Shown in pieces: positions 16,411 through 59,692 of a DNA stretch of 61,963 bases (positions are counted from its first letter, which is position 1; every line of letters starts with the position of its first letter). Made by a program: the position numbers and the translations under genes. The notes under the pieces were generated by a model. The model made no database searches, had not been told where the DNA came from, and worked only from the letters and a program-made list of their open reading frames with translations. Origin of the DNA: a virus; the IMG/VR virus record IMGVR_UViG_3300018080_000189, positions 1 through 61,963 of that record; one strand, written 5' to 3'.

Positions 16411-16434
16411 AACAAAATCATCACTTATTATGTC

Positions 16435-16608: not shown

Positions 16609-16618
16609 ATCAATACCT

Positions 16619-17431: not shown

Positions 17432-17513
17432 TTTACCCTCCTGTTGATTATGGGTTGTTGTTATTAGGCGCCTTTGATTGGCGCCGCTCTGTGTAACTTA
17501 CGCTGTTATGTAG

Positions 17514-17627: not shown

Positions 17628-17632
17628 ACTGA

Positions 17633-28625: not shown

Positions 28626-29941
28626 ACCCACAACCTACTCTCTTGCAATATCGGACCGTAGTATCGCGTATATAGATAATCATAGTTATAATGCCGCCGC
28701 ATGAACGTCTTCAACCTCACACTCTCATTAGCCAATATCCGCCCCAACACAATCAGAGCGATATCGCGCAATAACGGATCTATGCCGTTAATGTGATTCA
28801 CGCCACGATTGAATGACCCGAAATCAAAGAACAGCGCATTATACCCACTCACCTCGTGCATCATATCAAGTGAACCATTGAGTACGACGATTGGGCTCCC
28901 ACACAGAGCCGCTTCTGGGAGTACTAGCCCGAACGTCTCCTCGCGGGTAGGGAATATAAATACATTCGATAATTGGAATAGTTCCCGGATCATGTGTTTG
29001 GGTATGCCCACGCCGAACCGCCCCTCTTTGCCTGCGGGCTTGAAGTCTGGTGTGAATATAATCTCTGTACCGATGGTGAGACCGAGATCCACTGCTTGCT
29101 TTTTGTAGTTGTTGATGATGTCGAGTTGTTTCTGGCCGGTGGCCCACTGGGTGGCAATGACCAAACACACGGATTTACCCAAGCGCTTAAAGTGCCCGAA
29201 AATCCCCAACACTTCAGAGAGACGCTTAGCCTCTAGTCGATCCACCGACGCTGGGTAGATTTGAACTATCTCCGCTTGCATTACACCTGGGTAGGTATCG
29301 ATGAACTGCCTGGTATCTTCGCTATAATCGCATAGAGACCGTATGTCTTTAATATGGGGTATTACTCTCACATCGTCCATCACGCCTCGGTACTGTTCAG
29401 CCACTCTCAGCGCGTCAGAGCGATTTGGGTATAGGAGTTTGTGGCGCTTCCCGTAGAGCTTGATCTGCCAGAAATCAGACTCGGCTGACGGTACTGAGTG
29501 AATCGCGTGTAGCCATTTGACATTTGGTAAGTCCTTTGACGCTTCCATAATAGCGACAGCGAATGGTAAGTGCCAGCCTTGAAACACAATGTCTTCGGTA
29601 AACACCAGATCATAGTCTTTGAGTTCTTCTCTGAGCATCGCAGCGGTTTTGTTCTTGATCTGTTGGTGTTCGGCGGGGGTGCTGACTCCCGGCGCGGGTT
29701 TGTACGATTGGTCTTCACCTGTGAATTGCGCGAGCGTGTGATAGTCTGCCAGATGGGTGAACGGGATTTTCTTTTCGAGTATTACGTCGGCAGGGAACTC
29801 CTCGCCATGGTAGCGTTCAGACACGAATAAATGCACCTCGTGTCCGTATTTAGTGAGCATTTCTGCCCGGTCCTTTACTATGCCGGTCAGCGAATACTGC
29901 GGCATAAAGGATTGGAATGTAGTGATGATTCCAATTTTCAT
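28622..29941 (-). CDS. GT4 glycosyltransferase (439 aa)
   Basis: M-K-I-G-I-I-T-T-F at the start and K-D-R-A-E-M-L-T-K-Y-G-H-E-V fit the GT4 N-terminal Rossmann half. F-I-F-P-T-R-E-E-T-F-G-L-V-L-P-E gives the E-x7-E motif (E335, E343), followed by A-A-L-C-G-S-P-I-V-V. Complete and of normal length. First gene of the glycan cluster after the structural genes; AGGAGG upstream. Donor unknown. Confidence 0.85.
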   Translation of the reverse strand: MKIGIITTFQSFMPQYSLTGIVKDRAEMLTKYGHEVHLFVSERYHGEEFPADVILEKKIPFTHLADYHTLAQFTGEDQSYKPAPGVSTPAEHQQIKNKTAAMLREELKDYDLVFTEDIVFQGWHLPFAVAIMEASKDLPNVKWLHAIHSVPSAESDFWQIKLYGKRHKLLYPNRSDALRVAEQYRGVMDDVRVIPHIKDIRSLCDYSEDTRQFIDTYPGVMQAEIVQIYPASVDRLEAKRLSEVLGIFGHFKRLGKSVCLVIATQWATGQKQLDIINNYKKQAVDLGLTIGTEIIFTPDFKPAGKEGRFGVGIPKHMIRELFQLSNVFIFPTREETFGLVLPEAALCGSPIVVLNGSLDMMHEVSGYNALFFDFGSFNRGVNHINGIDPLLRDIALIVLGRILANESVRLKTFMRRHYNYDYLYTRYYGPILQESRLWV

Positions 29942-30216: not shown

Positions 30217-32226
30217 TTATGGAGGAGGAGTAGAGGTTGTAGTACAGGTAGTAGTGGTAGAAGTGTGTGTAGAGGAGGTAGTGGATAACGTCGATGCTGT
30301 AGAGGATGTAGTAGAGCATGATGAGGTTGTGGTGGAGAGTGTTGATGCTGTTGATGAAGTCGAGGACGAGGTAGTCGAAGTGTGCGTTGTCGAGGTAGTT
30401 GAGAGTGTGGAGGCTGTGGATGAGGTTGAAGACGAGGTGGTTGTGGTTGTTGAGAGTGTGGAGGCTGTGGATGAGGTTGAAGACGTTGAAGACGAGGTGG
30501 TTGTGGTTGTCGTACTAGATGATGTCGTAGTCCAGAACTTAGGATACCCGTCTGGACAACACGTATTGTACGTAAGATTATCTAAGTCGAAATAACCACC
30601 TTGGTCACTTGCGGACCCGTGCGCCTCTAGTCTAATGCCTTCTATGGCAGACGCTTGGCCGCCAAAGTCTCTACTATCTACTAGAACCCAAGATCCATTA
30701 TAGTAGTAATAGGTGCTCAAGACGTTCCCCACTCTAGTCACTCTAGCCGATGCCGGTAGACTAGTCAACCCACTATCCTGGCTGTATTGATTATCACCAC
30801 TTACGGTAAGTTTAGACTGCGCTCTGTAATCCCCCTCGGAGTATTGCCACAATAACAGCCTAGCATAACTGCTTTGGCTTTGAGCAGAATCAATAAAAAA
30901 GAAGAAGAATGAGTTTCCTAATTCAGTCGGGTCGGGGGTATAGTTGGATATGTCAACACTCACATCAAAATCGCCCGATGGTAACATATACTGGTAATCT
31001 GCGTAAACTAGCTCCCCATCATCTGAACTACAATATAGTCTTAGCTTATTGCCTACTAATGTGGCCGTGGAGTTTCCGTTTTCAGTGATTGAAAATCGTG
31101 TCATATCCTCGAATGTCTCGCTGTATTCACACCAATAAGTGGTAGTAGTGGTAGAAGAAGAGGTAGAAGTATGAGTAGATGTTGTGGTAGATGTTGTGGT
31201 AGAAAAAGAGGTTGTGGTAGTGGAAGAGGTTGTCGAAGAAGACGTGGTGGAGAGCGTAGTTGAGGACGTTGATGTAGTAGAGAGCGTAGATGCTGTACTG
31301 GACGTTGAGGAGGACGTAGAGGATGAGGAAGAGGATGTGGTTGTGGAAAGTGTGGATGCAGTAGAGGATGTCGAGCTAGTGGTTGACATAGAGGAAGAGG
31401 TAGTAGAGAGTGTAGACGAAGAAGAAGAGGTAGTGGACAGTGTAGACGAAGAAGACGATGTGGTTGAGAGTGTAGATGCTGTAGATGATGTAGTACTAGA
31501 GCTTGAAGACGTTGTTGTTGTAGATGACGTGGTTGAGATAGTTGAGGCCGTCGTGCTAGTACTGGAGCTTGAAGATGTTGTGGATGTCGAAGAGCTGGTG
31601 GTTGACATAGAAGACGAGGTAGTTGAGAGTGTACTGGAGCTTGAAGATGAAGATGACGAGGTGGTTGTAGATGACGTAGTAGATAATGTAGACGCTGTGG
31701 AGGACGTAGAGGATGAGGAAGAGGTTGTAGACAAGGTAGATGAGGTAGTTGAATACGTAGACGAGGTTGTGGATATAGTAGATGATGTAGATGAAGACGA
31801 GGATGAAGAGGTCGTAGTAGATAGTGTCGTTGAGGTTGTAGTGGATGACGACGATGAGGACGTAGAAGATGATGTAGTGGTTGTAGAGGACGTGGACGTG
31901 GTGGTAGAGGTAGATGAGCTTGTAGATGTGGTCGAGGACGAGGATGACGTGGACGATGTAGAAGACGACGAGGATGTTGAACTCGACGTTGTGCTTAGCG
32001 TACTAGCTGTAGAGGATGTAGAAGATGACGAAGAAGCAGTAGAGGACGTGGATGAGCAGGACGAGGTTGAGGTTGAAGTGGTCGTGGTTGACGACGTAGT
32101 GGTATGCCCCATTAGTTCATAGATCTGCTCGATTGTGCATCGGTATGTGTGCCCGTTTTGCACGACGACGAGTTGATCTGACCAATGTAGAGCGGGTACC
32201 TGGTCGTACTGGGTTATTTTTGGCAT
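30217..32226 (-). CDS. Mucin-like tail protein (669 aa)
   Basis: Residues 1-41 are a small domain (K-I-T-Q-Y-D, H-W-x-D-Q-L, R-C-T-I-E-Q-I) shared with the 42577-45186 protein; similar starts occur in phage tail fibres. Residues 42-363 contain almost only Ser and Thr, with a recurring phrase S-S-T-A-S-T-L-S-T-T. Residues 364-563 form a jelly-roll-like module bounded by C-E-Y ... F-E-D and D-L-x-Y ... C-C-P. Residues 565-669 are a second Ser/Thr tract ending T-C-T-T-T-S-T-P-P-P. Probably the distal tail or fibre protein; the tracts are candidates for O-glycosylation. AAGGAGGG precedes the start. Confidence 0.75.
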   Translation of the reverse strand: MPKITQYDQVPALHWSDQLVVVQNGHTYRCTIEQIYELMGHTTTSSTTTTSTSTSSCSSTSSTASSSSSTSSTASTLSTTSSSTSSSSSTSSTSSSSSTTSTSSSTSTTTSTSSTTTTSSSTSSSSSSTTTSTTLSTTTSSSSSSSTSSTISTTSSTYSTTSSTLSTTSSSSSTSSTASTLSTTSSTTTSSSSSSSSSTLSTTSSSMSTTSSSTSTTSSSSSTSTTASTISTTSSTTTTSSSSSTTSSTASTLSTTSSSSSTLSTTSSSSSTLSTTSSSMSTTSSTSSTASTLSTTTSSSSSSTSSSTSSTASTLSTTSTSSTTLSTTSSSTTSSTTTTSFSTTTSTTTSTHTSTSSSTTTTTYWCEYSETFEDMTRFSITENGNSTATLVGNKLRLYCSSDDGELVYADYQYMLPSGDFDVSVDISNYTPDPTELGNSFFFFFIDSAQSQSSYARLLLWQYSEGDYRAQSKLTVSGDNQYSQDSGLTSLPASARVTRVGNVLSTYYYYNGSWVLVDSRDFGGQASAIEGIRLEAHGSASDQGGYFDLDNLTYNTCCPDGYPKFWTTTSSSTTTTTTSSSTSSTSSTASTLSTTTTTSSSTSSTASTLSTTSTTHTSTTSSSTSSTASTLSTTTSSCSTTSSTASTLSTTSSTHTSTTTTCTTTSTPPP

Positions 32227-32306: not shown

Positions 32307-33935
32307 CTAGGCGTATTCCGCATAGCCGCCTCCGACAAATTGTGTGCCGGGCCATCCAGGGGAGAAGTCGTTAATGACTAGGCCGGGACCCGGTGGTGAT
32401 ACTTCATATTTGATCATTTTATTGAGTCCGAATATATGAAAAGCGAACCCGCTGGAATAGACAAAAGGGTGAGCCAGTACGGAATTCCAATACGCGGTGT
32501 AGTCAGCTAGAACAGAACTAAGCGTAGATGAGTACCCCACCATACGCCAGAGTTGAGCTTTGTATTTGCTTTCGGCGATTGAATACCAATGCACACTCAT
32601 AACGAGATCCCCCAAAAATGAGCACGCACCATCCAGAGAGACAAAACCAGTGAGGGAGTCAGCGTATGGGAATGTTAGTGTGGAAGAGATTGCGGTACTG
32701 ACGCCGTTGTGAACGCGTAGAGTACCACCATGGATACTTACGAGATTGGTAGTGGTTTCGTCGTAGTATAGTCCTGAGATTGGAAGAGCTGATATGTCGC
32801 CAATTACTGAGTCTACTATGGTGGAGATCCCGCTGAATTGATAAAGATTGAAATGAGAGTGCTGCTCAGCCGCAATCATGTTCTCGCCAGGCCCACGACA
32901 GCACCCACGCCACCGACCGCCTATTGAGTTGGATTCTGTTTCCAGAAGAGTATTTGACCATCCGGCGAATTTATATAGATCACCCCCTATATAGGAGATT
33001 TGGAATATACCAGGAACGTCTGGCGGTGCTGAAGTGGTGGTAGACGACGATGAAGTTGTGCAAGGATTGTCTTCAAACCCAATCACGCGAGGGGCTTCCC
33101 AGTTTTGGCCATAGAACCCGACAACAACTCTATCACCTATCTCGTAGGGCCCACCGTCATCGCGGTTCTTATATACCATAGGGACATTAGTGAGTGTACG
33201 GGTTACATCGGTGGCTAAGCCCTGAGCTGTCGAGTAGGCATCGAGTAGCACCGAGCATTTACTATTGTTTTTGATGTGCTGGGTAATGGTGCCCAATCGA
33301 TATAGAGGTTTCCACTTCTGCCATCCAGGAAATAGAGTGTAGTTGTAGGCAGCCTCGGCAGGAGACATTGATGCGACAGATCTGAGCTGGCCATCGCGGG
33401 ATTCGGAATATTCAGAATCTTCCCCGTCAGCGCCACCTGGGTGTATTAGAATAGTGTCGTCAGTGTTGGGGATTTCGAGAGTCCCTACAGAGCCAGTTAG
33501 GTTGCGAGTACAGTCGGCGCACCAGACTGTTCGGATATCCTCAGTGACTAGATTATTGAGATAGTCTCGTTGTTTTTCGAGTGATTTTTGTTTTAGTACA
33601 GCGGTTTGGTATTGGCTTTTAGCGCTGAGTAGTGCGGAGTAGGCTGAGCGCTCAGCTGATACTGCTGAGTTTACTTTTGATCCTGGGTTTTCCCCCGGGC
33701 TCTCTACCCGCTGACGTACAATCGCATTAAGATCGGATTCAGCTCTTTGGTGAGCACGTTGAGCGTTATCATACGCTTGAGAGCGTTCACTTATGGTAGT
33801 ATCAAGGAACTGTATTTCTTTGGATAGTATCTTGGCCTGATTGAGAGCGCGCTCGTCAGATTTCTCTATGCGCACGCGGTATCGCCCCCGCGCTAGGTTT
33901 CTGTCGCCAGATCCGAGTATAGTAGCCTTGCCCAT
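32307..33935 (-). CDS. Tail protein with coiled coil and C-terminal beta domain (542 aa)
   Basis: Residues 30-130 are a long charged coiled coil. C-A-D-C (about 139-142) is a metal-type pair. Residues 220-297 include G-D-R-V-V-V-G-F-Y, a barrel seen in tail-hub proteins. A short linker T-T-S-S-S-S-T-T-T-S (about 299-308) is a miniature version of the neighbours' tracts. Residues 312-542 look like a beta-propeller (repeated Y/W-rich strands). Likely a tail-tip or baseplate component. It overlaps the upstream gene by one base. Confidence 0.65.
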   Translation of the reverse strand: MGKATILGSGDRNLARGRYRVRIEKSDERALNQAKILSKEIQFLDTTISERSQAYDNAQRAHQRAESDLNAIVRQRVESPGENPGSKVNSAVSAERSAYSALLSAKSQYQTAVLKQKSLEKQRDYLNNLVTEDIRTVWCADCTRNLTGSVGTLEIPNTDDTILIHPGGADGEDSEYSESRDGQLRSVASMSPAEAAYNYTLFPGWQKWKPLYRLGTITQHIKNNSKCSVLLDAYSTAQGLATDVTRTLTNVPMVYKNRDDGGPYEIGDRVVVGFYGQNWEAPRVIGFEDNPCTTSSSSTTTSAPPDVPGIFQISYIGGDLYKFAGWSNTLLETESNSIGGRWRGCCRGPGENMIAAEQHSHFNLYQFSGISTIVDSVIGDISALPISGLYYDETTTNLVSIHGGTLRVHNGVSTAISSTLTFPYADSLTGFVSLDGACSFLGDLVMSVHWYSIAESKYKAQLWRMVGYSSTLSSVLADYTAYWNSVLAHPFVYSSGFAFHIFGLNKMIKYEVSPPGPGLVINDFSPGWPGTQFVGGGYAEYA

Positions 33936-34490: not shown

Positions 34491-37424
34491 TTATGGTATA
34501 ATAGTGGTTGTAGTTGTTACGATTGTCGAGGTGGTGGTCGTAGTAGAAGTGGTTGTAGAAGAGGTTGTCCATATTGTAGTACCTGTTGGGCATCCATGGC
34601 GGAATGTAAGATTGTCGAAGTCTACGTGGCCCCCATTAACATAACTGTACACAAAGCACGTCACACTATCGATTAAGGCGGCGTAGGATGTGAAGTCGTG
34701 TGACGATGTAGCAGCTACCCAAGATGCTCCATTGTAGTAGTAAGTTTGTAGTATAGTTCCTACTCGTGTTATCCTTAATTTTTGTGGTAATGACGCTGAT
34801 GTGGTCAAATACTCATCATCAGATACGCCATTTATCACTAGGTACTCTCTAATTAAATACCCGGCATCTGTCCTATGAGCTGTTATGTAAATACAATTAT
34901 CAGCAGAGTTTTTTCGTACATCATCACCAACGTACAGCACTGGGTATATACCATTATCAGCCTGTTCATAATCTTCATTACTGAGATCAACACGTATATC
35001 AAAATCCCCAGCGTTGATAGCATATAGGTAATCAGCTGTCGCCTCTGCACTATGGCTATAATCTATTGAGCCTCGCATTTTACCAGACACGCTGGTGATG
35101 TCGGAATAAGAGTCGTGATTGATCTGCCAATCATCTAAGTTAGTGAACTCTTCATTATACGAACATACCGTGGTAGTAGTTGTGCTGAGTGTCGCAGTGG
35201 TGGAGGTAGTCGATATAGTAGTTGAGGACGTTGAAGCGGTACTAGAGGTAGACGATGTAGAGATCGTAGATGAGGTTGTAGTAGTAGTTGGGCCTGGGCA
35301 CCCATCGACGAATTTAAGATCGTCCATCAGCACTTGCCCGCCTGGGTTTGATACAAACAACACTCTAACGTGAGCGAGATTAGCTGCGAACGCTGAAAAA
35401 TTCCAAGCATCGAGTTGAGTCCAGCTGCCGGCGTAGTAATAATACGCTCGGACGTTATTGCCCTCGCGGGTTACCCTAAGTCGAGACGGCACGCCTGCTA
35501 TTGTGTCCGATGTTTCGCCCTGATCTACTGAGTTTATAGTAGCATTAGCCACGACAGTGTGAGAGGTGTCGATGTAGTACCCAACGTAGGCTTGCTCTGT
35601 TGGTGTCGATACACTACTGCGTATATCGAGATAGATCTTTGAGCCGTTAGATGAAGATTCTGAGTAGTAGCTATCGAGATCGATTCTGATATCAAAATCT
35701 CCTGAAGATGCGCGATAGTCGTATATGCACTGGGTATTGCCGCTGTTGCCGTCGCCTACTAGCATCTTTAGTTGGCCAGCTTGTATTGTGGAGCTGCCGT
35801 CGCCGTTATTGGTAACTGTCCAGTTATCCAGAGATGCGAAGGATTCATCATAAACACAGAGAGAAGTTGTAGTGGTGGTTAGCGAGATAGTAGAGGTTGT
35901 GGTGGATAGTGTAGAAGCCGTTGAAGAGGTTGATGATGTTGTTGATAATGTAGATGATGAGGTAGAAGTAGATGACGAGGTAGTAGATGATGTAGAAGAA
36001 GACGAGCTAGTAGTAGTAGTGGTAGAGGAAGAGCTGGATGTTGATGATGTCGAAATTGTTGATAGTGTAGATGATGTCGAGGCTGTTGACGAGGTAGTAG
36101 AGGCTGTAGATGACGTTGATGAGGTTGATGCGGTGGATGATGTCGTGGATAGTGTACTAGTAGTAGACGCTGTAGAGGATGTTGAACTGGACGAGCTGGA
36201 TGTGGTAGTGGTTGACGATGACGACGTGGTAGTGGATAACGAGCTGGTTGACGACATTGATGATGTGGTGGAATAGGTTGAGGATTGTGTAGAGACGGTG
36301 GATGAGGTAGATGAAGTTGACGATGAGGAGCTAGAAGTAGATGAGGTGGATGAGGTTGACGTAGTAGTGGAGGAGAATGACGAAGATGAGGATGTTGTTG
36401 AGGCTGTAGAGGATGTTGTTGAGCTAGACGATGAGGTTGTGGTAGTCCAGGCTTTCGGATATGCGTCAGGACACCCCAAACGAAACATGAGGTTGTCTAC
36501 GTCGAGGGAGCCGCCTCGTGTAGAGGTGTCGTAGGCTAATAGCTCTATACGATCAAGCTCACTTGCGTTGGATGAGAAGTCGTGAGTATACGCCGTCTCC
36601 CAAGAAGTAATAAAATAATCAATAGAGAGTTCATTACCTGTCCGGACTATGCGAACTGAGCTGGGCTCCCCCATTCCGGTGTCGATATCGGTATAGGTCG
36701 AGAGGTTGTCTTTGTGGGATTTGGTTATTGAAAACACTCCAGCAGCAGTAGAGCGGATTTTGATTGTCGAGTAGTATAGAGAGTCAGATGAGCGGATACG
36801 GAATTCAAAAGTGAAGCCGTTGGTAGCGTCGTCAGGGGTGTAGTCGGATGTGCAGAGGTCTATACTGAAATCACCATCTGGGATAAGGTATTGGTAGAGC
36901 ATAGTGATCTGGGTATTGAGAGAGTCGGGTAAATCGATTTTACATTCCCAATCCCGGGCGCTTTTGAGATAGCTGGTAGCGGTTTCGGTTCCGTCGAGCT
37001 TAGTGACATACCACCAGGCCAGATCGTGAAACGTATCATCTAGCGAACAGTAATAGTCGGCGATTTCAATAGGGGCGAGTTTTTCACTCACGTATGCGAC
37101 TAGCGTGATTAGGCCGTGATCGTTTTGGAGTGAATTCAGGTTAACTAGGAATATACCTTCGGGGATGGCCATAACCACTTCGGAATAATTCTTAAATATG
37201 TATTCGAGAGTGGTAGCTTGCCCTTCGTCCAATTCAGCCACTATGGTTAGAGTACGGTCGCCGTCGGAATACCCGCTGTCGCTTATCGAAACACCTCCAT
37301 CGAGAGTGGCAGTGCGAGTAGCGCGTCGTGAGAGTGTCTTTATATCTGTGTCAGCTAGATTGGCCTTAAAGAACACATTACCACGGAGGTCGAAGGTCTG
37401 AGTTGATATTCCAACATACATCAT
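34491..37424 (-). CDS. Mucin-like tail protein with three jelly-roll modules (977 aa)
   Basis: Residues 1-120 are a phage tail domain (distal-tail-like). Three related modules lie at about 125-325, 522-711 and 753-948. Each opens with C/Y-x-Y ... F-x-x-L-D-x-W and closes D-N/D-L-x-F-x-x-G-C-P. They are separated by Ser/Thr tracts at 326-520, 712-752 and 950-977. The modules resemble concanavalin/LamG-type sugar-binding folds. It follows the tape measure directly, so it is probably at the tail tip. Tracts up to 195 residues with almost no other amino acid are suited to O-glycosylation or to act as stiff spacers. Confidence 0.75.
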   Translation of the reverse strand: MMYVGISTQTFDLRGNVFFKANLADTDIKTLSRRATRTATLDGGVSISDSGYSDGDRTLTIVAELDEGQATTLEYIFKNYSEVVMAIPEGIFLVNLNSLQNDHGLITLVAYVSEKLAPIEIADYYCSLDDTFHDLAWWYVTKLDGTETATSYLKSARDWECKIDLPDSLNTQITMLYQYLIPDGDFSIDLCTSDYTPDDATNGFTFEFRIRSSDSLYYSTIKIRSTAAGVFSITKSHKDNLSTYTDIDTGMGEPSSVRIVRTGNELSIDYFITSWETAYTHDFSSNASELDRIELLAYDTSTRGGSLDVDNLMFRLGCPDAYPKAWTTTTSSSSSTTSSTASTTSSSSSFSSTTTSTSSTSSTSSSSSSTSSTSSTVSTQSSTYSTTSSMSSTSSLSTTTSSSSTTTTSSSSSSTSSTASTTSTLSTTSSTASTSSTSSTASTTSSTASTSSTLSTISTSSTSSSSSTTTTTSSSSSTSSTTSSSTSTSSSTLSTTSSTSSTASTLSTTTSTISLTTTTTSLCVYDESFASLDNWTVTNNGDGSSTIQAGQLKMLVGDGNSGNTQCIYDYRASSGDFDIRIDLDSYYSESSSNGSKIYLDIRSSVSTPTEQAYVGYYIDTSHTVVANATINSVDQGETSDTIAGVPSRLRVTREGNNVRAYYYYAGSWTQLDAWNFSAFAANLAHVRVLFVSNPGGQVLMDDLKFVDGCPGPTTTTTSSTISTSSTSSTASTSSTTISTTSTTATLSTTTTTVCSYNEEFTNLDDWQINHDSYSDITSVSGKMRGSIDYSHSAEATADYLYAINAGDFDIRVDLSNEDYEQADNGIYPVLYVGDDVRKNSADNCIYITAHRTDAGYLIREYLVINGVSDDEYLTTSASLPQKLRITRVGTILQTYYYNGASWVAATSSHDFTSYAALIDSVTCFVYSYVNGGHVDFDNLTFRHGCPTGTTIWTTSSTTTSTTTTTSTIVTTTTTIIP

Positions 37425-37431
37425 GTGTTGT

Positions 37432-40182
37432 CTATGCTCCTATTCCTAATAAAAAGTTTCCATAATCTTCATTGACGCGGACCTGAATGGCGGAGAGGAT
37501 CTCCCACATGAAGGCTTCCAGATGGGGTTGTAGTCCGTCGCCTGAGACGGTGATGAGTGGATCACCAGAAGCCATTGCCGAGGCGCGTTGTTTTATGAGA
37601 TCAATTTGAGCGAGAGTGAGTTCTTTCTGTAGAGCGAATGCTTCCTCACGACGGGACTCCTCGTCACGAATGCGTTTTTGGATTGATTGCTGGGCGAAGA
37701 TGTCAAGTGACTTACTTCCAAGTTGATCATAAAGTTTTGACAGTGTATCGCCAGTCGCGTTTATGGATTCACCTATAGATCCAAACGAGGCAGTGATGGT
37801 CTCGTTCTCGGATTCCATGATAGTCGCGAACCCTTTCATCTTCGCTCCCATAATGTCGGCGTTGGCGTCAATCTCGGCTAATAATTTCTTTTGAGCGGCT
37901 TCAAATTTCTTGTCGTCAGGAACGTCTAGTTCAACAGAGGTTGAGTCTTCAATAGCAGTGGTTGTATTAGCGAGGTCTTTTTTGAGAGCAGCGAGATTAT
38001 TTTCCAAATAGGCGAGGTCGGAGTCGGTGAAGACGCCGATTTCTTTTCCAGCGTATGCGCCGGTACCCGATACGCGGTCAATAAAGTCTTTCGCGGCACT
38101 GTCCATTTCAATAGATGCGTTAAACTTGGCGTTCTCGGTGAATTGCTTGTTGGCAGCTAAGAGTTTGTCAGCGGCAGCCTGGATGTCATCGTCGATACCG
38201 TCGTCATCTATGGTTACTTTAGTGGAAATTTCCTTAGGGAGTTTGTCGATAGCGGAAATGACAGCATTGACGAGATCAGACGTAAACATTTCACTAATAT
38301 CGTCTATATTGGTTTCAGCAGATCTGGAGAGGTCTTTAAATACCGACTCGATATCGTCAATATTCTTTTCGGTAGTTTTCGATGCGTTTCCAATCTTATT
38401 GGCCATCTTGCTTGCGTCTTCGCCAACTTTCTCGATACTGCCGGACGCGCCTGTGAGTTTGTCAAGCCAGCGGGAGCCAAGGTTGAATATTGAATAATTG
38501 TCGGTCTTTTCGAGCTCCTCATTGGCCTTGCCGAGATTGTCAATCCATCTTGACCCCGCATCGATAGTAGACAAGATATTGGCGATGGTTTTTATCCTGG
38601 TGTCTACCAAGTCGAGTACGCCCAACATCTTCACACCGAATTTGTCAATCGCTTTAGCCCAACCGCCAAATTCTCCAGCAGCTTGTTGTTGAGTCGAGCT
38701 GAGTTCTGTAAACCCGCGTATTACGTTGAGTACCTTGAGAGCGACTTTATCAAAAGCGTTTACGAGTCCGGTGGTGGCTTCTACCAACGCTGCCGAGGTG
38801 TCGGTGGTTTCTTGTAGGAAGTCTTGGAGTCCTTCAGGAGTGTCAAGTTTAAATCTATCCACTATCTCGGAGAGTTTGTCGAATAGCCCTTCAAATGCTT
38901 TTATCAACGCGCTGTAGTCTACTTCTTGGAGAGCTTTAGGGAGCTGCATTCCCACACTCTTGAGGTAGTCGGCTAGGTCATCACTGAAGTTCTCCAGAAG
39001 ATTGAAAAGAGTATCGAACGCACCATCACGGAGTTCATCTCGGAACGATGAGAACAATTCGGTAGTAGCGCCGAGAACTTTCACGACAGCGGGTTTTAGG
39101 TTTCCACCAAGTTCGGCGGCTGCCAAAGTGATTGCGGATTTTGTCGCGCCCAACTGTACTTCTAGTGAATTCCACCTCTTCTCAACTTGGTCGATTGTGT
39201 ATTGGTGGTTCACCATCCTTGCGACGGTTTCGATACCGGCAGTGTAGTTGAGATCACGGAGAGTAGCAATCATCTTAGCTGCTTGGCGGTTACCAAAGAT
39301 TTGTGACGCTGCAAAGAGTTGGTTGGAAGAGGTCGCGCCTTGCATTGCCACGATGAGATCTTTGAGTATGTCGCCGCCCTTACGAAGTTCCTTGTTTGGC
39401 CCCTCCCTCTGAGCGACGCCGAGCCTATCCAAGGCCGCAATGACAGGTTTTGCATCGTCAGTGAGTTTGATCAGCCCGCGCCGCCAAGCAGTACCGGCTT
39501 CCTCACCAGAGCGGAATACTTCTATAGCTGGGGTTATATAAGCAGTAGTTTCTTCTATCGAGAGACCTGCTAGCTTGGCAGCTGGGGCAACACGGCGGAG
39601 AGCGTCACTGAGTTCGTTGGCGTTTGTGGCGTAGGTATCAGAGACTTTGTTGATAACGTCAACAACATGGGTAGCATCTTTTACTCCGAACTCAAACCCT
39701 TTCATGATAGCAATAATGTTGTTGGTCGAGTCTGCCAGACCTACCATACCAGCACTGGAGAGTTCAAGTGAGCGGTTAAGGAGGATTATGGATTCTTCAA
39801 GAGTGAATCCAGCGCGTTTGAAATCGGTGGTGGCTTTTGTTACGTCAGCAGCGCCCATGCCGTATTGGATGGCGAGTTTTTCCATCGCCACCTGGTTTTT
39901 GCCAGTTATTACCTCCCCATCGCTCAGGACTTTTTCAAGATCGATAAGGGCGTATTCGTAGGATTTGAATGAGGCTAAGGCGATAGTACCGATTGCGGCC
40001 CCGACAGCGAGAATGGCAGCTTCCATCTTGAGTAGTTTATCGACAGTATTGGCGACAGGAGCGGCGAGGCTCTCCACCTTATCAATCACCTTATCAAGTG
40101 ATTTTACTATACTCATAGCAGGTTTCGATACGAGATTCACGCCGTTGAATATAATATCAACTGTTCTTTTTACATTTGCCAT
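37432..40182 (-). CDS. Tail tape measure protein (916 aa)
   Basis: Long helical protein with an Ala/Gly-rich hydrophobic segment near residues 53-70, followed by the TP901-type tape-measure core (Y-G-M-G-A-A-D-V-T-K-A-T, then G-L-A-D-S-T-N-N-I). It sets tail length and is threaded in the tail tube. The length predicts a siphovirus tail. It follows the frameshifted chaperone pair as in lambda and most siphophages. No lysozyme or peptidase domain recognised. Confidence 0.9.
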   Translation of the reverse strand: MANVKRTVDIIFNGVNLVSKPAMSIVKSLDKVIDKVESLAAPVANTVDKLLKMEAAILAVGAAIGTIALASFKSYEYALIDLEKVLSDGEVITGKNQVAMEKLAIQYGMGAADVTKATTDFKRAGFTLEESIILLNRSLELSSAGMVGLADSTNNIIAIMKGFEFGVKDATHVVDVINKVSDTYATNANELSDALRRVAPAAKLAGLSIEETTAYITPAIEVFRSGEEAGTAWRRGLIKLTDDAKPVIAALDRLGVAQREGPNKELRKGGDILKDLIVAMQGATSSNQLFAASQIFGNRQAAKMIATLRDLNYTAGIETVARMVNHQYTIDQVEKRWNSLEVQLGATKSAITLAAAELGGNLKPAVVKVLGATTELFSSFRDELRDGAFDTLFNLLENFSDDLADYLKSVGMQLPKALQEVDYSALIKAFEGLFDKLSEIVDRFKLDTPEGLQDFLQETTDTSAALVEATTGLVNAFDKVALKVLNVIRGFTELSSTQQQAAGEFGGWAKAIDKFGVKMLGVLDLVDTRIKTIANILSTIDAGSRWIDNLGKANEELEKTDNYSIFNLGSRWLDKLTGASGSIEKVGEDASKMANKIGNASKTTEKNIDDIESVFKDLSRSAETNIDDISEMFTSDLVNAVISAIDKLPKEISTKVTIDDDGIDDDIQAAADKLLAANKQFTENAKFNASIEMDSAAKDFIDRVSGTGAYAGKEIGVFTDSDLAYLENNLAALKKDLANTTTAIEDSTSVELDVPDDKKFEAAQKKLLAEIDANADIMGAKMKGFATIMESENETITASFGSIGESINATGDTLSKLYDQLGSKSLDIFAQQSIQKRIRDEESRREEAFALQKELTLAQIDLIKQRASAMASGDPLITVSGDGLQPHLEAFMWEILSAIQVRVNEDYGNFLLGIGA

Positions 40183-40191
40183 TGTTTTTAA

Positions 40192-40787
40192 TTACCTTTT
40201 TATTTCTGCGTAATATAATCCCCAAAGCTCTATCTCGGTGTCGGTGAGATAGCCCTCAGGGAATAAATCAGGACGAGCCTGAAATAGGAGAAGCCCCCTA
40301 GCGTAGCACAAAGCTAAGGCTGCTTTGACACTTTGGTCTCGCCAGAGGGCTTGGGTTTTCCCGGCACCTGACCCTTTCCTGTCAATTTGGTAATGGTATT
40401 GGTGATTTCATAAAATTCGATTGGGTAGGTGTCACAGAGTTTTACCGCGACCTCTAGGGTGACCTTTGGGGAGATTGAGGCGATAGTGAGCATTTCGAGC
40501 CGTTTGGCTATATCGGAAGGTACGTCGTCTGTGATACCCATAGCTTTTCTTATCGCTTCCACCTTTTCGCCTGTATGGCCGGATAAGAGACCATCTATAA
40601 GAGCTGAGATGTTCTGTTGTTTTGCTGCGGCCTCCTGGGTGTGGGCTAGTTCTGGGCCGGTGAGGCCCCGGACCGTAAAGATGGGTTTCTCATCTGGTGA
40701 GAAATAATCTTTGAGATCCGGGACCGGGACTTCTTGAGTTCTGGGCTGGAAGTTCGTTTTCATGAACTTCTTTTCGTCAAATGCCAT
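40192..40787 (-). CDS. Tail assembly chaperone, frameshift product (gpGT-like)
   Basis: Ribosomes slipping -1 at the heptamer G-GGA-AAA (40362 down to 40356) leave the frame of the 157-residue protein after codon 144 and read 54 more codons without a stop, ending TAA at 40192. The extension includes K-A-A-L-A-L-C-Y-A-R-G and E-I-E-L-W-G-L-Y-Y, a typical T-domain. The product of 198 residues would bridge tape measure and tail-tube subunits. The slip heptamer differs from lambda's GGGAAAG in one base. It is annotated as a joined product; only one reading frame change is required. Confidence 0.8.
40314..40787 (-). CDS. Tail assembly chaperone, unshifted form (gpG-like, 157 aa)
   Basis: Residues 30-125 are helical, with F-T-V-R-G-L-T-G-P-E-L and A-V-K-L-C-D-T-Y-P, like gpG-type chaperones that precede tape measures. 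The last codons are Pro/Lys-rich and contain the slip site. The abundant short form and rare long form together assemble the tail. It does not remain in the virion in known systems. Confidence 0.8.
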   Translation of the reverse strand: MAFDEKKFMKTNFQPRTQEVPVPDLKDYFSPDEKPIFTVRGLTGPELAHTQEAAAKQQNISALIDGLLSGHTGEKVEAIRKAMGITDDVPSDIAKRLEMLTIASISPKVTLEVAVKLCDTYPIEFYEITNTITKLTGKGQVPGKPKPSGETKVSKQP

Positions 40788-40824
40788 TGTGGTTCGCTCC
40801 TGTACTAGTGGTTAAGGGTTTGTA

Positions 40825-41841
40825 TTATGATTCTTGGTCTATTGCGACTTCATCAGCAGAGATGGTACAAGCCGCTACCATTGAGTCGTCTGCCGGGAAT
40901 GTACGCGTGATTCCGAGTTTGCCCTGACAGAGAATATAGCCTGTTTTGTATTTATCAGGGAAGAATTTGAACACTAGGATCTCCTCTTTGTTTTTGACCA
41001 CAGCGTCGTTGTAGCCGGTTCGGAGATAGGCGTTGAATGATCCCTGACCAATAGAGGATGAACGCGAGCCAATGGTCTGTTGGTATACCTGGTTGGAAGA
41101 GACGGAATGAGAGTTCTCAGGCGGTACGAAATCTGACACTGGGCGTAGTTCAGCGAATATCGGATCTGCGTAAGACGCATAGACGCCTTTGGGTAGTGCC
41201 CCGACATGATCATCCGGAAGTGCAGAGAGGAAGGTTATTGAGCCGCCAGTACGAGTGCCGTCAGCATTTGGTAAGAAATTCTCTTCCCAGAGAGGGTAAT
41301 CATAGCGTTCCTGGGTAGAGCCTGGAATCGTGTAGATTTCGGTTGAGAGCACGGCTGCATCGGTTTCTGAATTATATTTAACTTGAGCGACCTCTATCGC
41401 ACCTACCGTGATTAGTGGGGGCCCACCAGCAGCACCACGAGTAGATGACCAAGCGGATGCGTGGCCGGTGCCGGTTAATACGTCGTACGCCCCAGCTGCG
41501 GTTACGATAATGGAGTTGATTATGTATTTGGTAGCTGCGCCTGCGCCACGGGCACAAGTGATTTCAGCGGCAGGTATGGAAGTTTCCACCCCAGCGAGAT
41601 AGCAAGTCGAGGCAGGGCAATCTACTTTATTGTTCACACCAGCATCATCTGGAATAAACAACGGGTTTGATATTAACCCATCAGGTCTAACTACTGGGGA
41701 ATACCCGGATTTGTCAGACCAATAAGTCGCGTTTGACGTAAAATTGGTGTTATCGCCAGAGTCAGTCAACGCTTCCATAGCGTAAGCCGTCTCTCCAGCT
41801 TCGTACATCAATTTTCCATTCTCAGCTGTGTTAGATTTCAT
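40825..41841 (-). CDS. Major tail tube protein (338 aa)
   Basis: Beta-rich with many Gly, Ser and Thr; placed directly before the chaperone pair, the standard place for the tail tube gene. The core contains R-T-G-Y-N-D and F-K-F-F-P-D-K-Y. Four Cys are spread through the protein. Longer than lambda gpV, so it may carry an extra surface domain. Assigned mainly by position and composition. Confidence 0.7.
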   Translation of the reverse strand: MKSNTAENGKLMYEAGETAYAMEALTDSGDNTNFTSNATYWSDKSGYSPVVRPDGLISNPLFIPDDAGVNNKVDCPASTCYLAGVETSIPAAEITCARGAGAATKYIINSIIVTAAGAYDVLTGTGHASAWSSTRGAAGGPPLITVGAIEVAQVKYNSETDAAVLSTEIYTIPGSTQERYDYPLWEENFLPNADGTRTGGSITFLSALPDDHVGALPKGVYASYADPIFAELRPVSDFVPPENSHSVSSNQVYQQTIGSRSSSIGQGSFNAYLRTGYNDAVVKNKEEILVFKFFPDKYKTGYILCQGKLGITRTFPADDSMVAACTISADEVAIDQES

Positions 41842-41856
41842 TGATTGTACTCCTTG

Positions 41857-42570
41857 TTAGGATTGTTTATAGGGATTGCCAGCGAGTGTAGCATAGAAAA
41901 TAGAAAACGATACCGAGATCTTCACAATATCGTCTCCGGGATCAGGAAGTGGGTCTAAGCCTCCTCGTTGGTATTCTACGTTATTCAGGAGATCGGAGAA
42001 TAGATCATAGCGGGTACCGACTCCGGTAGTGGCCGCGATGGTCTCGCCTCCTGAGTTGAGAAAGTTTTCGGCGGTGAATGACCCCCAAGGGAGTCGTAAT
42101 AAAAATGTGCCAGCGGCAGTACCTAATGACCATGACCCTGATGAGAGGGTGGTGGACTCCAATACAGCGGTAGCGGATGAAGATGATCCAGTGAGTGTTG
42201 AGCCGATTTGTGGTTGTCGCACACCGGAAGTGAACGGCATAGTGATACGGGTAGCCAGCATACATGCTTGAATGTCGCCAAGTATATGCTCAGAAGTCCG
42301 GGCCGCTCGTTCAGATGCGTCGCCTTCAGAATTAACGAATTTACTAAACGCATCAATAGTGAGAGGCATTTCATGCACACCGTGGCCGAGATGCTCTGCA
42401 TTGGTGTCTTGTTCGGCTATCATTACGATGCCTGGGAGTTCTGGTTCCACAAGATCATAACGCCCACGGTAGACGTGTGTACCGATATTGGTTACGTAGC
42501 CATTGGTAGTAGTGATCTTGGCGAGTTCGGTTTTGATTGATTGTAGGATTTGTTCTCTTATAGTAAGCAT
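41857..42570 (-). CDS. Tail terminator/completion protein with inserted beta module (237 aa)
   Basis: Residues 1-125 and 195-237 fit a minor tail/terminator fold (helical I-R-E-Q-I-L-Q-S-I-K start). Residues 130-190 are an insert, G-S-S-S-S-A-T-A-V and L-S-S-G-S-W-S-L-G-T-A-A-G-T-F, which closely matches a segment of the head decoration protein at 50341. It would cap the tail tube and join head. The insert suggests an exposed surface module shared across the virion. Confidence 0.65.
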   Translation of the reverse strand: MLTIREQILQSIKTELAKITTTNGYVTNIGTHVYRGRYDLVEPELPGIVMIAEQDTNAEHLGHGVHEMPLTIDAFSKFVNSEGDASERAARTSEHILGDIQACMLATRITMPFTSGVRQPQIGSTLTGSSSSATAVLESTTLSSGSWSLGTAAGTFLLRLPWGSFTAENFLNSGGETIAATTGVGTRYDLFSDLLNNVEYQRGGLDPLPDPGDDIVKISVSFSIFYATLAGNPYKQS

Positions 42571-42576
42571 ATAGGT

Positions 42577-45186
42577 TTACTCCGGGGGGCTCGTAGATGT
42601 TGTCGTCATTGCTGTCGTTGTCGTTGTCGTTGTTGTTGTTGTTGTCGTTGTAGTAGTCACTACAGGACAACCATCTACAAACTTTAAATCATCCATGTAG
42701 ATTAAACCGCCCGATGGCGTAGATGTCATTCGTATCTTTACGAGTTTTGGGTTGTCTGATCGTGTAGAGAAATCCCAAGAATCTAACATTACCCAGGAAG
42801 AATAGTAATAATACACTTTTATGGTTGATCCGTCTCGAACTAACCTAAATCGTGATGGTGTTCCGCCTATCGTGTCTCCGGTCTCGCCTTGTGCTACGCC
42901 ATCTATAGTAGCATTAGCGGATACCTTAGCACCATCATTTACACGATATGATATATAAGCGGAGTCTGTATTACCTACTCCGTTAGTAGTTTCTATACTG
43001 AATGCTATAACAGTCCCTAGAGTTGACGCCTCTGAATAGTAAGAGTCCATGTCTATTCTAATATCAAAATCGCCACTGGGCACTTTGTAATCATAGTAAC
43101 AATTAGATCCACCAGTATCACCATTAGGAACTTCCAATTTTAATTTATTCCCAAATATAGTCGCTGTTCCATCATCTATCTCTTCCACATCCCAAGCGTC
43201 TAATGATTCAAACCCTTCATCCCATTCACACAGTGCTGTAGTAGTAGTAGTTGACGAGGACGATGAGGCGGTAGTGGAGGTAGAGGAGGTAGATGAAGTT
43301 GACGATGATGAGGTAGTGGATAGAGTCGAGGTAGTAGAGTCGGTAGATGATGTGGTGGATGTCGTTGATGCTGTTGATGATGTTGATGTAGAGGTTGACG
43401 AAGATGATGTTGTAGAAAGCGTAGAGGTTGTCGATTCGGTTGTAGATATCGTAGAAGCAGTCGAGGATGTTGTTGATGCGGTAGAGGATGAAGTAGTAGT
43501 GGATGAAGTAGATGAAGATGAAGAAGTTGTAGTTAATGTTGATGTTGTGGTCGATGTAGTCGTCCATACTACGTCTTCTCCTGTCGGACACCCATCTACA
43601 AATACTAAGTTGTCGTAAGAAACAAACCCACCACGGTTATTTTGATCGTATACGTAGAAGTGTATGCTTTTCAGATTAGTGGCTCTGCCACCAAAATCGT
43701 CGCTACGTATTAAATTCCAAGACCCAGAATGCTCGTAATACAGATAGACTACTGTGCCGGTACGGACTATTCTAAATCCTGTTATTACTGTCGCCAGCCC
43801 TACCTCAGTCGTAGTCTGATTCACACTGTTTATCGTGTTCCTACCATATACTCTGAATGGATTAGCGTCGTTGGTATGTCTGAGGCGTAATCTGCACCAG
43901 TCTGTCCAATAGTCACCAATGCCGCCACCGACTCTAAACTCTACATGAAATCCGTCTGTTGAGTTGTAATATGTGTAGCCATTTATGTCCACCCTAATGT
44001 CAAAATCGCCTGAGTCTATAGCATACACATAAGTTGCTAATATATAGGTGTCGGCTGAGTCTGGCAAAGATAGCCTTAGTCTTTCCGATGTTATGGTTGC
44101 GGTTTCGCCAGAACCCCCAGAGTATATGTCCAGTAAATTCAGACTTGAATCGTCACTGAACATCTCGTTATACAAACACCAATAAGTAGACGTAGTTGTT
44201 GTGGACGATAGTGTAGAGGAAGAGGTTGTAGTGAGGGTAGTAGAGAGGGTGGACGCGGTTGAGGAGGTTGTGGTGAAGGTGGTGGTAGAGGTTGAGGATG
44301 TGTGCGTGGTAGAGGTTGTGGAGAGTGTGGATAAGGTCGAAGTAGTGGATAGTGTTGAGGATGAGGTAGAGGTAGTTGAGGATGAGGTAGAGGTAGAGGT
44401 AGTTGAAAGCGTAGAAGAAGAAGTGGAAATGGTGGAAGCTGTAGAGGAGGTTGAAGAAGAAGTGGAAATGGTGGAAGCTGTAGAGGAGGTTGAAGAGGAT
44501 GTAGTAGTGGTAGAGATAGTGGATGCAGTTGACGAAGTTGAAGAAGACATAGTAGTGGTAGAGCTAGTGGATACTGTAGAGGAGGTTGAAGATGAAGTGG
44601 TGGTAGTGGAGCTAGTGGATGCAGTTGATGAAGTCGATGAAGATGTGGATGCAGTGGACGAGGTTGAGGATGTGGTCGTCATTGTGGTAGATAGAGTAGT
44701 GGAGACAGTAGATGCTGTAGATGATGTAGAGGTAGTAGATGACGTAGAGGAGGATGTAGAAGAGGAAGAAGAAGAAGTGGAGGTAAAGGTAGTGGAAGTT
44801 GATGTTGAGACTGTAGAGGATGTCGTAGATGTGGAAGAGGAGGTAGATGAAGTAGTAGATGAGGCAGTAGATGAGGTAGTAGATGATAAGGTAGTAGATG
44901 AAGTCGTGGTAGATGACGATGTAGAGGTTGAGGTCGAAGACGACGATGTGGAGAGCGTAGACGAAGTAGAAGCGGTAGATGATGTTGAGCTTGAACTACT
45001 AGAAGTCGAGAATGTAGATGAAGTGGTCGATGACGTGGAGTTCGTGGATGACGTGGTGGTGTGGCCCATTAACTCAAATATTTGCTCGATTGTGCATCTA
45101 TAGGTCTTGTCGCCCCGAACTACTAATAGTTGGTCAGGCCAATGTAGTATTGGTGCTGAATCGTATTGTGATATTTTTCTTGACAT
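42577..45186 (-). CDS. Mucin-like structural protein with two jelly-roll modules (869 aa)
   Basis: Residues 1-41 match the N-terminus of the 669-residue protein (I-S-Q-Y-D, L-H-W-P-D-Q-L, Y-R-C-T-I-E-Q-I). Ser/Thr tracts lie at 42-335, 538-650 and 842-869. Jelly-roll-like modules at 337-537 and 651-842 start with W-C-L-Y or L-C-E-W and end G-C-P. The last tract includes a 15-residue poly-Thr coded by a GTT/GTC-like microsatellite on the plus strand. It lies among tail-terminator and head-tail genes, so it may decorate the neck or tail shaft. AGGAGATA before the ATG. Confidence 0.75.
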   Translation of the reverse strand: MSRKISQYDSAPILHWPDQLLVVRGDKTYRCTIEQIFELMGHTTTSSTNSTSSTTSSTFSTSSSSSSTSSTASTSSTLSTSSSSTSTSTSSSTTTSSTTLSSTTSSTASSTTSSTSSSTSTTSSTVSTSTSTTFTSTSSSSSSTSSSTSSTTSTSSTASTVSTTLSTTMTTTSSTSSTASTSSSTSSTASTSSTTTTSSSTSSTVSTSSTTTMSSSTSSTASTISTTTTSSSTSSTASTISTSSSTSSTASTISTSSSTLSTTSTSTSSSTTSTSSSTLSTTSTLSTLSTTSTTHTSSTSTTTFTTTSSTASTLSTTLTTTSSSTLSSTTTTSTYWCLYNEMFSDDSSLNLLDIYSGGSGETATITSERLRLSLPDSADTYILATYVYAIDSGDFDIRVDINGYTYYNSTDGFHVEFRVGGGIGDYWTDWCRLRLRHTNDANPFRVYGRNTINSVNQTTTEVGLATVITGFRIVRTGTVVYLYYEHSGSWNLIRSDDFGGRATNLKSIHFYVYDQNNRGGFVSYDNLVFVDGCPTGEDVVWTTTSTTTSTLTTTSSSSSTSSTTTSSSTASTTSSTASTISTTESTTSTLSTTSSSSTSTSTSSTASTTSTTSSTDSTTSTLSTTSSSSTSSTSSTSTTASSSSSTTTTTALCEWDEGFESLDAWDVEEIDDGTATIFGNKLKLEVPNGDTGGSNCYYDYKVPSGDFDIRIDMDSYYSEASTLGTVIAFSIETTNGVGNTDSAYISYRVNDGAKVSANATIDGVAQGETGDTIGGTPSRFRLVRDGSTIKVYYYYSSWVMLDSWDFSTRSDNPKLVKIRMTSTPSGGLIYMDDLKFVDGCPVVTTTTTTTTTTTTTTTAMTTTSTSPPE

Positions 45187-45196: not shown

Positions 45197-47701
45197 TTAT
45201 GGTGGAGGGGTTGACGTTGTTGTGCAGGTTGAAGTGGTACTAGTGGAAGATGAGGTAGTGGTTGTACTCCAGGTGGAGGCTGTAGATGAGGTTGAGGAAG
45301 AGGATGAGGTACTGGTAGTGGTAGTGGTAGACGCTGTAGATGAGGTTGTAGTCAGAGTGGACGAGGTTGTTGAGGAAGACGACGATGTACTAGTAGTCAC
45401 TGCGGTAATTTCAAGCACATGAGTCTGTAGATTATATCCTACTTGCCATACGATGAATGCGATAGCCTCCTCGTCAGTCATGGTAATATGAGACGCGCCT
45501 GGTGATGATATGACGGTGTATGGTGCGAGATAGGGTGATATGGTCGGCGTGAATAGCCCGGTATCGGCTTTGTATTCTCGCTCTACTATGTTGCCTGATG
45601 CTGCCTTCCATACTAAATGGAAGTGATAATAAGCGTGCTCACCTAAAGCGACAAACGTATCACCAGCTGTGTTGCTCAGGAGATGTTCCGCTGACCAGAC
45701 TTGACCTGGGCCTGCTGGGCGGGTTCGCAATGCTGCTTTACGGTCTGAGTTTATGTATATTAGCAGTGTCTCGCCGGTGTTCAGTACATTAGTGGCCTTA
45801 AGATTACTACCTGGGTATAGAGATACGTCAGCGGCAGTGGCTATTGATTGGGTTGCTTCCCAGTCGTCGCCACCTGCTGGGTTATTATCTGTCCCGTCTC
45901 TGTAAGCTGATTTGAGATCTGTGTACCCCTCACGCCAGACAGCTACCAGAGAGCCTACCGTTCCGGCATCGCCACGACGTATTGTAGAGCAGCATAAGTT
46001 GGATATGCCAGTTGCGAGTGTTTTAGCTGGATTGGCGGTGGTTGGGAGTGTATTACTGGCTGTTGATCTACGGACAAATAAATCGTAATCTTCGGTGGCG
46101 GTTACGTATAGAGAAGCAGAGACATTAATCTGATCTCCACCGCCGTCTTTAGCGATGTCTACGCGCTGATATGAACCGCCATCAGCTGATCCATCGAATA
46201 TTAGCGTGGAGGAATCCCATGAAAAGTTAGTAGCTGGGTAACCAGTGCTTTCGCGACCCAAACAGTCATCACCACTTTGATATACTACAAATGCGACTGT
46301 AGAATCTCCTATCAAGGAAAAATCACGAGATACGCCAGTATCGGTAATACGGGCAGAAGAGTTTTCTGTCCAGTCGTCAGGGTCGATAGTGAGACGGGCT
46401 TGGGTAGAATAGTCAAAACAAATAGCGGGTATTGACTCGTTATAATAAGATCGCCAGTAGCGGGTACCGTCAGACCAGATCTTAAGCTGAGTTGAATAGC
46501 CTGTCATAGATTCAGGTTGAATAGTGGTAGTGGTTGAGGATGAGATAGTGGTTGAGGAGGTAGTAGTGGAAGATGTTGTCGAGAGTGTGGAGGCTGTAGA
46601 TGAGGTTGAGGAAGAGGATGAGGTTGTAGTCGTAGAGGATGATGTAGTGGATGTAGTGGATGTAGTGGATGTAGTGGATGTAGACGTAGTTGAGAGTGTG
46701 GAAGCTGTGGATGAGGTTGAAGATGATGAGGATGAGGATGAGGTGGTAGTTGATAGTGTGGAGGCTGTAGAGGACGAAGATGAGGATGAAGAGGTAGTAG
46801 TCGAGGATGTAGATAATGTACTGGATGATGAGGTTGTAGTCGTAGAGGATGATGAAGATGATGTAGTTGTAGACAGTGAGGTTGTAGTCGTAGAGGATGA
46901 TGAAGTTGATGAAGTTGAGGACGTAGATGAAGATGAAGAAGTCGTAGTACTGGCCGTACTTGACGATGACGACGATGACGATGAGGATGAAGAAGTCGTA
47001 GTGGTAGTGGATGACGAACTACACGTAGAGGATGTAGAAGTGGAAGACGATGAGGTAGTTGTCGATGACGTTGTAGTGGATGTAGAAGAAGTGGAGGTTG
47101 TAGTAGACGATGAGCTGGTTGTGGACGAGCTTGAGCTGGTAGACGTAGACGTAGTAGAGGAGCTGGAGGATGTTGAGGATGTAGAGAACGTCGTAGTGGT
47201 AGTGGACGATGACGATGACGTGGTAGTGGAAGACGTAGTGGTCGAGGACGAGCTGGTTGTGGATAGTGTCGAACACGTACTTGATGATGACGACGATGAC
47301 GTGGTAGTGGATGACGATGATGTAGTTGTGGTCGTAGTCATTGACGTGGTTGTAGTTGTGTTTAGGCTCGCTATGGCCATGTATTTGATCCAGGTGCGCT
47401 TGCCGGGTATTGGGGATTCTAATACAAAACTACCCTCGCTAGGAACTACTACACGATCCCCTCTGGCGACTGTGTAACCAGTAGGCAGATCCTCAGGTCG
47501 GAATTTCACCACCTTATTTGTCGTGACTACGTATCCTTCATAGCCGCCTGGGACTTGAGCGTACTCTTGAGTGACCCGTACAGTGATTGAGAATGACGAG
47601 ACGGAGGGGTCTAGTGGTATATAAGTCGCAGATACGCCGAGGTTATCCATTATGTCTTCAGATGCTTGAGATAGTATGTCGAGTATATCGTCAGCTGCCA
47701 T
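45197..47701 (-). CDS. Head-tail connector domain fused to mucin-like tracts (834 aa)
   Basis: Residues 1-112 fit a head-closure or neck protein (D-I-L-D-I-L-S-Q-A, then D-R-V-V-V-P-S-E-G). Residues 113-394 are Ser/Thr only. Residues 395-765 form a beta-propeller-like domain with repeated W/Y strands (L-K-I-W-S-D-G-T-R-Y-W-R). Residues 767-834 are Ser/Thr again, ending T-C-T-T-T-S-T-P-P-P exactly like the 669-residue protein. Neck proteins are normally under 150 residues, so this is a large fusion, probably whiskers or collar fibres. The start has no strong ribosome site, but the gene follows its neighbour by three bases. Confidence 0.65.
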   Translation of the reverse strand: MAADDILDILSQASEDIMDNLGVSATYIPLDPSVSSFSITVRVTQEYAQVPGGYEGYVVTTNKVVKFRPEDLPTGYTVARGDRVVVPSEGSFVLESPIPGKRTWIKYMAIASLNTTTTTSMTTTTTTSSSSTTTSSSSSSSTCSTLSTTSSSSTTTSSTTTSSSSSTTTTTFSTSSTSSSSSTTSTSTSSSSSTTSSSSTTTSTSSTSTTTSSTTTSSSSTSTSSTCSSSSTTTTTSSSSSSSSSSSSTASTTTSSSSSTSSTSSTSSSSTTTTSLSTTTSSSSSSTTTTSSSSTLSTSSTTTSSSSSSSSTASTLSTTTSSSSSSSSTSSTASTLSTTSTSTTSTTSTTSTTSSSTTTTSSSSSTSSTASTLSTTSSTTTSSTTISSSTTTTIQPESMTGYSTQLKIWSDGTRYWRSYYNESIPAICFDYSTQARLTIDPDDWTENSSARITDTGVSRDFSLIGDSTVAFVVYQSGDDCLGRESTGYPATNFSWDSSTLIFDGSADGGSYQRVDIAKDGGGDQINVSASLYVTATEDYDLFVRRSTASNTLPTTANPAKTLATGISNLCCSTIRRGDAGTVGSLVAVWREGYTDLKSAYRDGTDNNPAGGDDWEATQSIATAADVSLYPGSNLKATNVLNTGETLLIYINSDRKAALRTRPAGPGQVWSAEHLLSNTAGDTFVALGEHAYYHFHLVWKAASGNIVEREYKADTGLFTPTISPYLAPYTVISSPGASHITMTDEEAIAFIVWQVGYNLQTHVLEITAVTTSTSSSSSTTSSTLTTTSSTASTTTTTSTSSSSSTSSTASTWSTTTTSSSTSTTSTCTTTSTPPP

Positions 47702-57531: not shown

Positions 57532-57614
57532 TGAGGTGGATTTTCCGAAGTGGATCGGGGTAGATGCCGATAAGAGAATTAAACATGATAATAACCATTA
57601 AAGAGGGCGTAGAT

Positions 57615-59686: not shown

Positions 59687-59692
59687 ACTACA

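Follow-up and report, generated by a model that had tools for sequence, protein, structure and literature searches.

Ser/Thr-rich stalks with lectin-like modules beside a glycosyltransferase cassette: a candidate system for virion O-glycosylation in uncultivated phages

The window analyzed here is an IMG/VR virus record of 61,963 bases, representing a phage seen in environmental DNA alone. Its genes follow a siphophage-type order: terminase, portal, head protease, capsid, neck genes, tail terminator and tail tube, followed by the tape measure, the tail tip and then glycosyltransferases. The head genes were named by sequence and order, without a profile match; the tail tube protein is 53% identical to that of phage ctUtU524 and 39% identical to that of Marinobacter phage PS3. 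Elsewhere in the window, a row of four paralogous small Cys-cluster proteins (F-M-x-E-K-N-x-I start, CPWC motif) is encoded on the plus strand at 57564-60097. It should also be mentioned that a sulfotransferase-looking protein with an N-terminal T-S-G-R-S-G-T-K loop and no Pfam match, possibly acting on glycans, is encoded at 11765-12577.

Five proteins of the late region, here called A to E, contain Ser/Thr joints (Table 1). The initial annotation described a repeated module linked by Ser/Thr tracts in three proteins (A, C and D), and this was confirmed, the linkers reaching 319 aa in length with a Ser+Thr content of 84-95%. Protein E is a fourth tract protein with a different ectodomain, and protein B has a short joint. 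Directly downstream of protein A lies a cassette of glycosyltransferase (GT) and methyltransferase genes, extending from the GT4 gene to the GT2 gene.

Table 1. Tract proteins and cassette genes in the window
Feature	Position	Strand	Details
GT2-family glycosyltransferase	22699-23715	-	Glycos_transf_2, E 7e-10
GTc, putative glycosyltransferase	25065-25889	-	no Pfam match
SAM methyltransferase	26065-26667	-	weak Pfam Methyltransf_23
GTb, putative glycosyltransferase	26660-27793	-	no Pfam match; conserved with the cassette
GT4-type glycosyltransferase	28622-29941	-	E-x7-E invariant (E335, E343)
Protein A	30217-32226	-	42-aa N-terminal probable anchor 32098-32226; S/T tract (319 aa) 31141-32097; one module 30526-31140; S/T tail 30232-30525
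Protein B	32307-33935	-	tail protein core 33054-33935; short S/T joint; swapped ectodomain 32310-33035
Protein C	34491-37424	-	120-aa tail core 37065-37424; modules 36438-37064, 35280-35873, 34572-35177; tracts 35874-36440, 35178-35279
Protein D	42577-45186	-	probable anchor 45052-45186; tract 44194-45051; module 43555-44193; tract 43243-43554; module 42652-43242
Perfect 39-bp tandem repeat in D tract	44414-44496	-	
Protein E	45197-47701	-	head-closure-like N-terminal core 47354-47701; tract 46529-47353; unrelated ectodomain 45395-46528; S/T tail 45212-45394

The cores of these proteins have counterparts that stand alone in other phages. Protein C is encoded right after the tape measure, and the first ~106 residues of its core correspond to the whole of a small tail gene present in PS3 (E 4e-44), L006 and ctUtU524; this gene is stand-alone and in PS3 and ctUtU524 it occupies the same place, directly after the tape measure. 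The core of E matches a stand-alone gene of 124 aa in L084 and, weakly, head closure protein Hc1. Homologues of the B core were found in phages PS3 and ctUtU524. The cores of B and E are also present in the close relative L005/L013, where their ectodomains have no counterpart. Stand-alone cores and differing ectodomains together indicate that heads are exchanged at the Ser/Thr joints of conserved tail and neck proteins. Proteins A and D share an N-terminal segment of 42 residues, also found in L006, which probably anchors them to the virion; synteny suggests a virion location for each of the five proteins.

The module has about 200 amino acids and occurs in six copies, one in A, three in C and two in D. 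In leave-one-out HMM searches each of the six was recovered with 123-187 bits, against a maximum of 10.5 bits among 500 shuffles per module, which bears out the number and places of the copies given in the initial annotation; alignment of the copies revealed 26-33% identity to the first one. The motifs described at the same time held in part. All six copies have the opening Cys and the closing Cys-Pro, whereas F-x-x-L-D-x-W is a consensus only (copy D1 has FSDDSSLNLL and the copy in A has FEDMTRF) and the ending, D-[LFVYM]-D-[ND]-L-x-[FY]-x-x-[GC]-C-P, shows some variation. More copies were found in other records, and in total 21 were compared. Because the N-terminal and C-terminal Cys are either both present (19/21) or both absent (2/21), a disulfide between the first and last Cys that closes each bead is suggested. 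The two Cys-less copies, both from L010, are embedded between globular domains and not between tracts. An insert of ~85 residues common to the tail terminator and a putative decoration protein (41857-42570 and 50341-51261) is a second example of a single domain spread among structural genes.

No relative of the module was found by BLAST among 50,697 phage records, nor did its profile find a sequence match in the PDB. Against Pfam, PHROGs and NCBIfam neither the module nor the tract proteins yielded anything useful; one of the six module copies matched DUF1583 weakly (E 0.0013).

The tracts have a grammar of their own. Of 112 hydrophobic residues in the window that are flanked by Ser or Thr, 80 sit within the pattern ST-x-ST, while shuffles of S and T alone averaged 6.8 and never exceeded 16. 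The corresponding counts in other records were 157/185, 57/80, 50/67, 32/41, 28/32, 24/25 and 24/29. The pentapeptide STAST occurs 33 times in 29 DNA spellings. Distances from Thr to Thr peak near 3, 6-7, 10 and 13, which points to a degenerate ten-residue repeat like SSTASTLSTT as the likely unit of the tracts. In a tract protein of 1,771 aa (L084, 6285-11597) x is often Leu or Cys (STLST 67, STCST 54); thus, x varies and the ST-x-ST frame is kept. The pattern is absent in L008, where the tracts are of SSRSS type, and in L010, where GT4 and tracts are present. A 2,584-aa protein of L008 (1-7753) combines SSSSSSR-type tracts with four modules of the window's kind and appears to represent another stalk chemistry with the same heads.

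The genes of the cassette are arranged in the order GT4, GTb, methyltransferase, GTc, GT2, and roughly twelve uncultivated phages, as well as one Deltaproteobacteria MAG contig, have them in largely the same order. This contig held the one true GT4 relative revealed by a scan of genome contigs, and it is probably phage DNA. The GT4 protein contains a Glycos_transf_1 domain (30.6 bits, above the curated cut-off of 26.4). Neither GT4 nor GTb had a BLAST relative among the 50,697 phage records, where the GT2 found only a weak match (24% identity), and GT4 was absent from PLSDB plasmids.

To relate tracts and enzymes, loci were selected in several ways. A scan with GT4 gave 20 loci, 12 of which contain tracts of at least 30 aa; a second scan with GTb gave 17 loci and thereby 13 further records, 11 of them with such tracts (one of these, L190, on the opposite strand), so that tracts accompany 23 of the 33 enzyme-selected loci. 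Among 80 relatives selected by the tail tube, three have tracts, and all three records carry cassette genes: the full set in L005, GT4 and GTb in the L084 record and a GT2 in the L006 record. Within the fetched loci, no cassette genes were found in the 77 tract-less relatives (Fisher test for 3 vs 77, 1e-5, a value that ignores kinship). Comparison of 23/33 enzyme-selected loci with 0/77 gave 3e-16, which likewise ignores kinship and uses control phages not matched by lineage; as the loci are related to each other, both values overstate independence. For 45 of the 77 tract-less relatives the search extended over the entire record, and GT4 was absent; the sensitivity of this search is evident from its matches elsewhere. 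When the DNA pattern of the tracts served as the sole query, GT4 was present in 5/5 records above 25 kb, the sixth record being an 18-kb fragment that ends before the GT4 place. A control set selected by an NlpC/P60-type tail gene had tracts of at least 30 aa in 12/27 loci and is of limited use, because most of its contigs end before the GT position.

The position of the tracts is also regular. In 23/35 loci (27 with short tails) GT4 is preceded by tracts on its own strand, with 38 tract ORFs on the strand of GT4 vs 1 on the opposite one, and in many loci the nearest tract ORF is 25-450 bp away. No tract was found within 10 kb upstream of GT4 in L024, L026/L187, L027, L030, L189 and L190. Tracts without this GT4 occur in L046 and L008, and L056, another locus whose tracts stand with other glycosyltransferases, contains GT2, GTb and methyltransferase genes. 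In L046 a poly-Thr-tailed protein (15576-18635) is directly followed by a GT2 and an acyltransferase-like gene, which suggests a separate enzyme set for poly-Thr.

Phages bearing the cassette share the tracts while their globular parts differ, so the most economical account has the cassette adding sugars to the tracts. The initial annotation had spoken of mucin-like strings; the co-inherited adjacent cassette and the ST-x-ST grammar lend this strong, if indirect, support, glycosylation itself being what we infer from them. We consider it reasonably probable that the phage encodes O-glycosylation of virion stalks displaying lectin-like beads. The main competitor, which we regard as unlikely but deserving attention, holds that the tracts are plain unstructured spacers free of sugar and that the glycosyltransferases serve to change the host O-antigen or hypermodify DNA and stand near the late genes by chance. 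The enzymes could indeed have host surface polysaccharide or DNA as their target, since phage glycosyltransferases are known to modify the host surface and DNA (PMC12619734); tract length also seems free to vary. In contig L007, otherwise 100% identical over the overlap, protein D has one 39-bp copy fewer, in frame, which may be either a length change or an assembly collapse. In mere spacers, however, one would not foresee an ST-x-ST pattern that persists while its codons vary, nor does chance proximity fit well with the co-occurrence of cassette and tracts across phages with unrelated globular partners or with tracts upstream of the enzymes, nearly always on the same strand and often at such short distances.

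The nature of the beads was approached by structure prediction. An AlphaFold model of the module built from 21 sequences was confident and all beta (pLDDT 89.5, pTM 0.85), showing a predicted two-sheet antiparallel jelly roll of about 200 residues. The best Foldseek matches in the PDB were legume lectins, ERGIC-53 and GH16 enzymes (E about 5e-7 to 1e-6). VIA-align gave Z 12-13.4 against the PDB, with GH43 C-terminal domains also matched; the CBM2 of the evolved Dit of phage J-1 (5ly8), among the best of these matches, aligned with Z 13.1 over 184 residues (rmsd 3.8) and the receptor-binding domain of TM4 gp23 (9n6a) with Z 12.2 (rmsd 5.1). From these matches the fold of the predicted model can be assigned to the concanavalin A-like lectin/glucanase jelly rolls. 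Thus, of the concanavalin/LamG-type fold proposed initially the jelly roll holds for the model, and the LamG part does not: the LamG/Laminin_G models of Pfam found no match in the module, and membership in that family was rejected. The structural matches are 5-14% identical to the module, so no pocket residues can be transferred, and function is not deducible from the fold alone.

Since GH16 laminarinases and lichenases share this fold class, the modules might act on host polysaccharide as degrading enzymes, either GH16-like glucanases or depolymerases of another kind. This seems improbable: 20/21 copies lack the GH16 catalytic motif E-x-D-x(1,2)-E, its single match (ELDRIE) is not conserved, and the alignment contains no invariant or nearly invariant Glu. 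GH16 activity was rejected on the missing motif. Hardly credible is the view that the tracts owe their Ser/Thr reading to chance, being DNA microsatellites or assembly artefacts, since, although many tandem-repeat calls fall inside them and assembly can collapse repeats, their frames stay open for hundreds of codons in many independent contigs, AGY Ser codons are also present and third codon positions are unconstrained, with all four bases in use (G 8-16%, others 21-38%), so that selection acts on the protein and not on a DNA repeat; on this codon evidence microsatellites were rejected as the sole cause.

Returning to glycosylated stalks, the following scheme can be proposed. Conserved tail and neck proteins would carry long Ser/Thr stalks as decorations of the virion, ended or punctuated by concanavalin A-like jelly-roll modules. 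During assembly in the host cytoplasm the stalks would be O-glycosylated, most likely by the cassette (GT4, two further probable glycosyltransferases, GT2 and methyltransferase), whose enzymes probably recognize or act around the decapeptide-like ST-x-ST pattern. Sugars would make the stalks stiff and extended and hold several weakly binding beads away from the particle, so that glycans on the host or in its surroundings could be bound multivalently; the virion may also be shielded by its coat of sugar. Sugar binding and adhesion, like glycosylation, are put forward here as deductions.

Similar arrangements are known. In the evolved Dit and other CBM-decorated tail proteins of siphophage J-1, lactococcal 936 phages and streptococcal phages (PMC7291167), carbohydrate-binding beta-sandwich modules are added to conserved tail proteins, and protein C, a conserved tail protein right after the tape measure with predicted CBM-like modules, resembles them. 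There, however, the CBM is inserted in loops of the Dit galectin domain, whereas here the modules are C-terminal to the core, the Ser/Thr tracts are very long, several module copies occur, neck-type proteins are also involved and a GT cassette adjoins. Serine-rich repeat (SRR) glycoproteins of streptococci and lactobacilli have adjacent GT genes, priming plus extending (PMC6973325). They share with the window the SRR - binding region - SRR layout, in which short degenerate Ser/Thr-rich repeats flank a binding domain, and their binding regions can hold L-type lectin folds. In contrast, the proteins here are from a phage, no accessory Sec system was recognized and the GtfA/GtfB priming pair was not found, GT4 matching neither model but generic GT4-type ones. 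The system in the window seems to work like SRR adhesins and evolved Dits, and by the features tested it is a member of neither.

Virions of mycobacteriophages are glycosylated (Freeman et al. 2023, as cited in PMC12619734), with phage-encoded glycosyltransferases and sugars on structural proteins, as is supposed here. Their glycans are attached to capsid and tail tube subunits at the C-terminus, and the available part of PMC12619734 does not mention long mucin-like stalks or lectin beads. Within the library searched, we found no paper on the combination of stalk, bead and GT cassette, which is a weak negative.

More tentatively, and with doubt somewhat outweighing confidence, we suggest that a widespread group of uncultivated phages possesses a dedicated mucin-type O-glycosylation pathway, whose acceptor is the decapeptide-like ST-x-ST grammar of virion stalks, with stalk and enzyme cassette forming the conserved unit and globular heads (lectin-like modules and others) being interchangeable. 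If this is true, glycosylation of phage virions would amount to more than a set of isolated cases, being a modular system of large extent whose acceptor motif can be identified, and it would account for many of the long Ser/Thr-rich proteins of environmental phages. A compact peptide acceptor together with its glycosyltransferases would also be of interest to glycobiologists.
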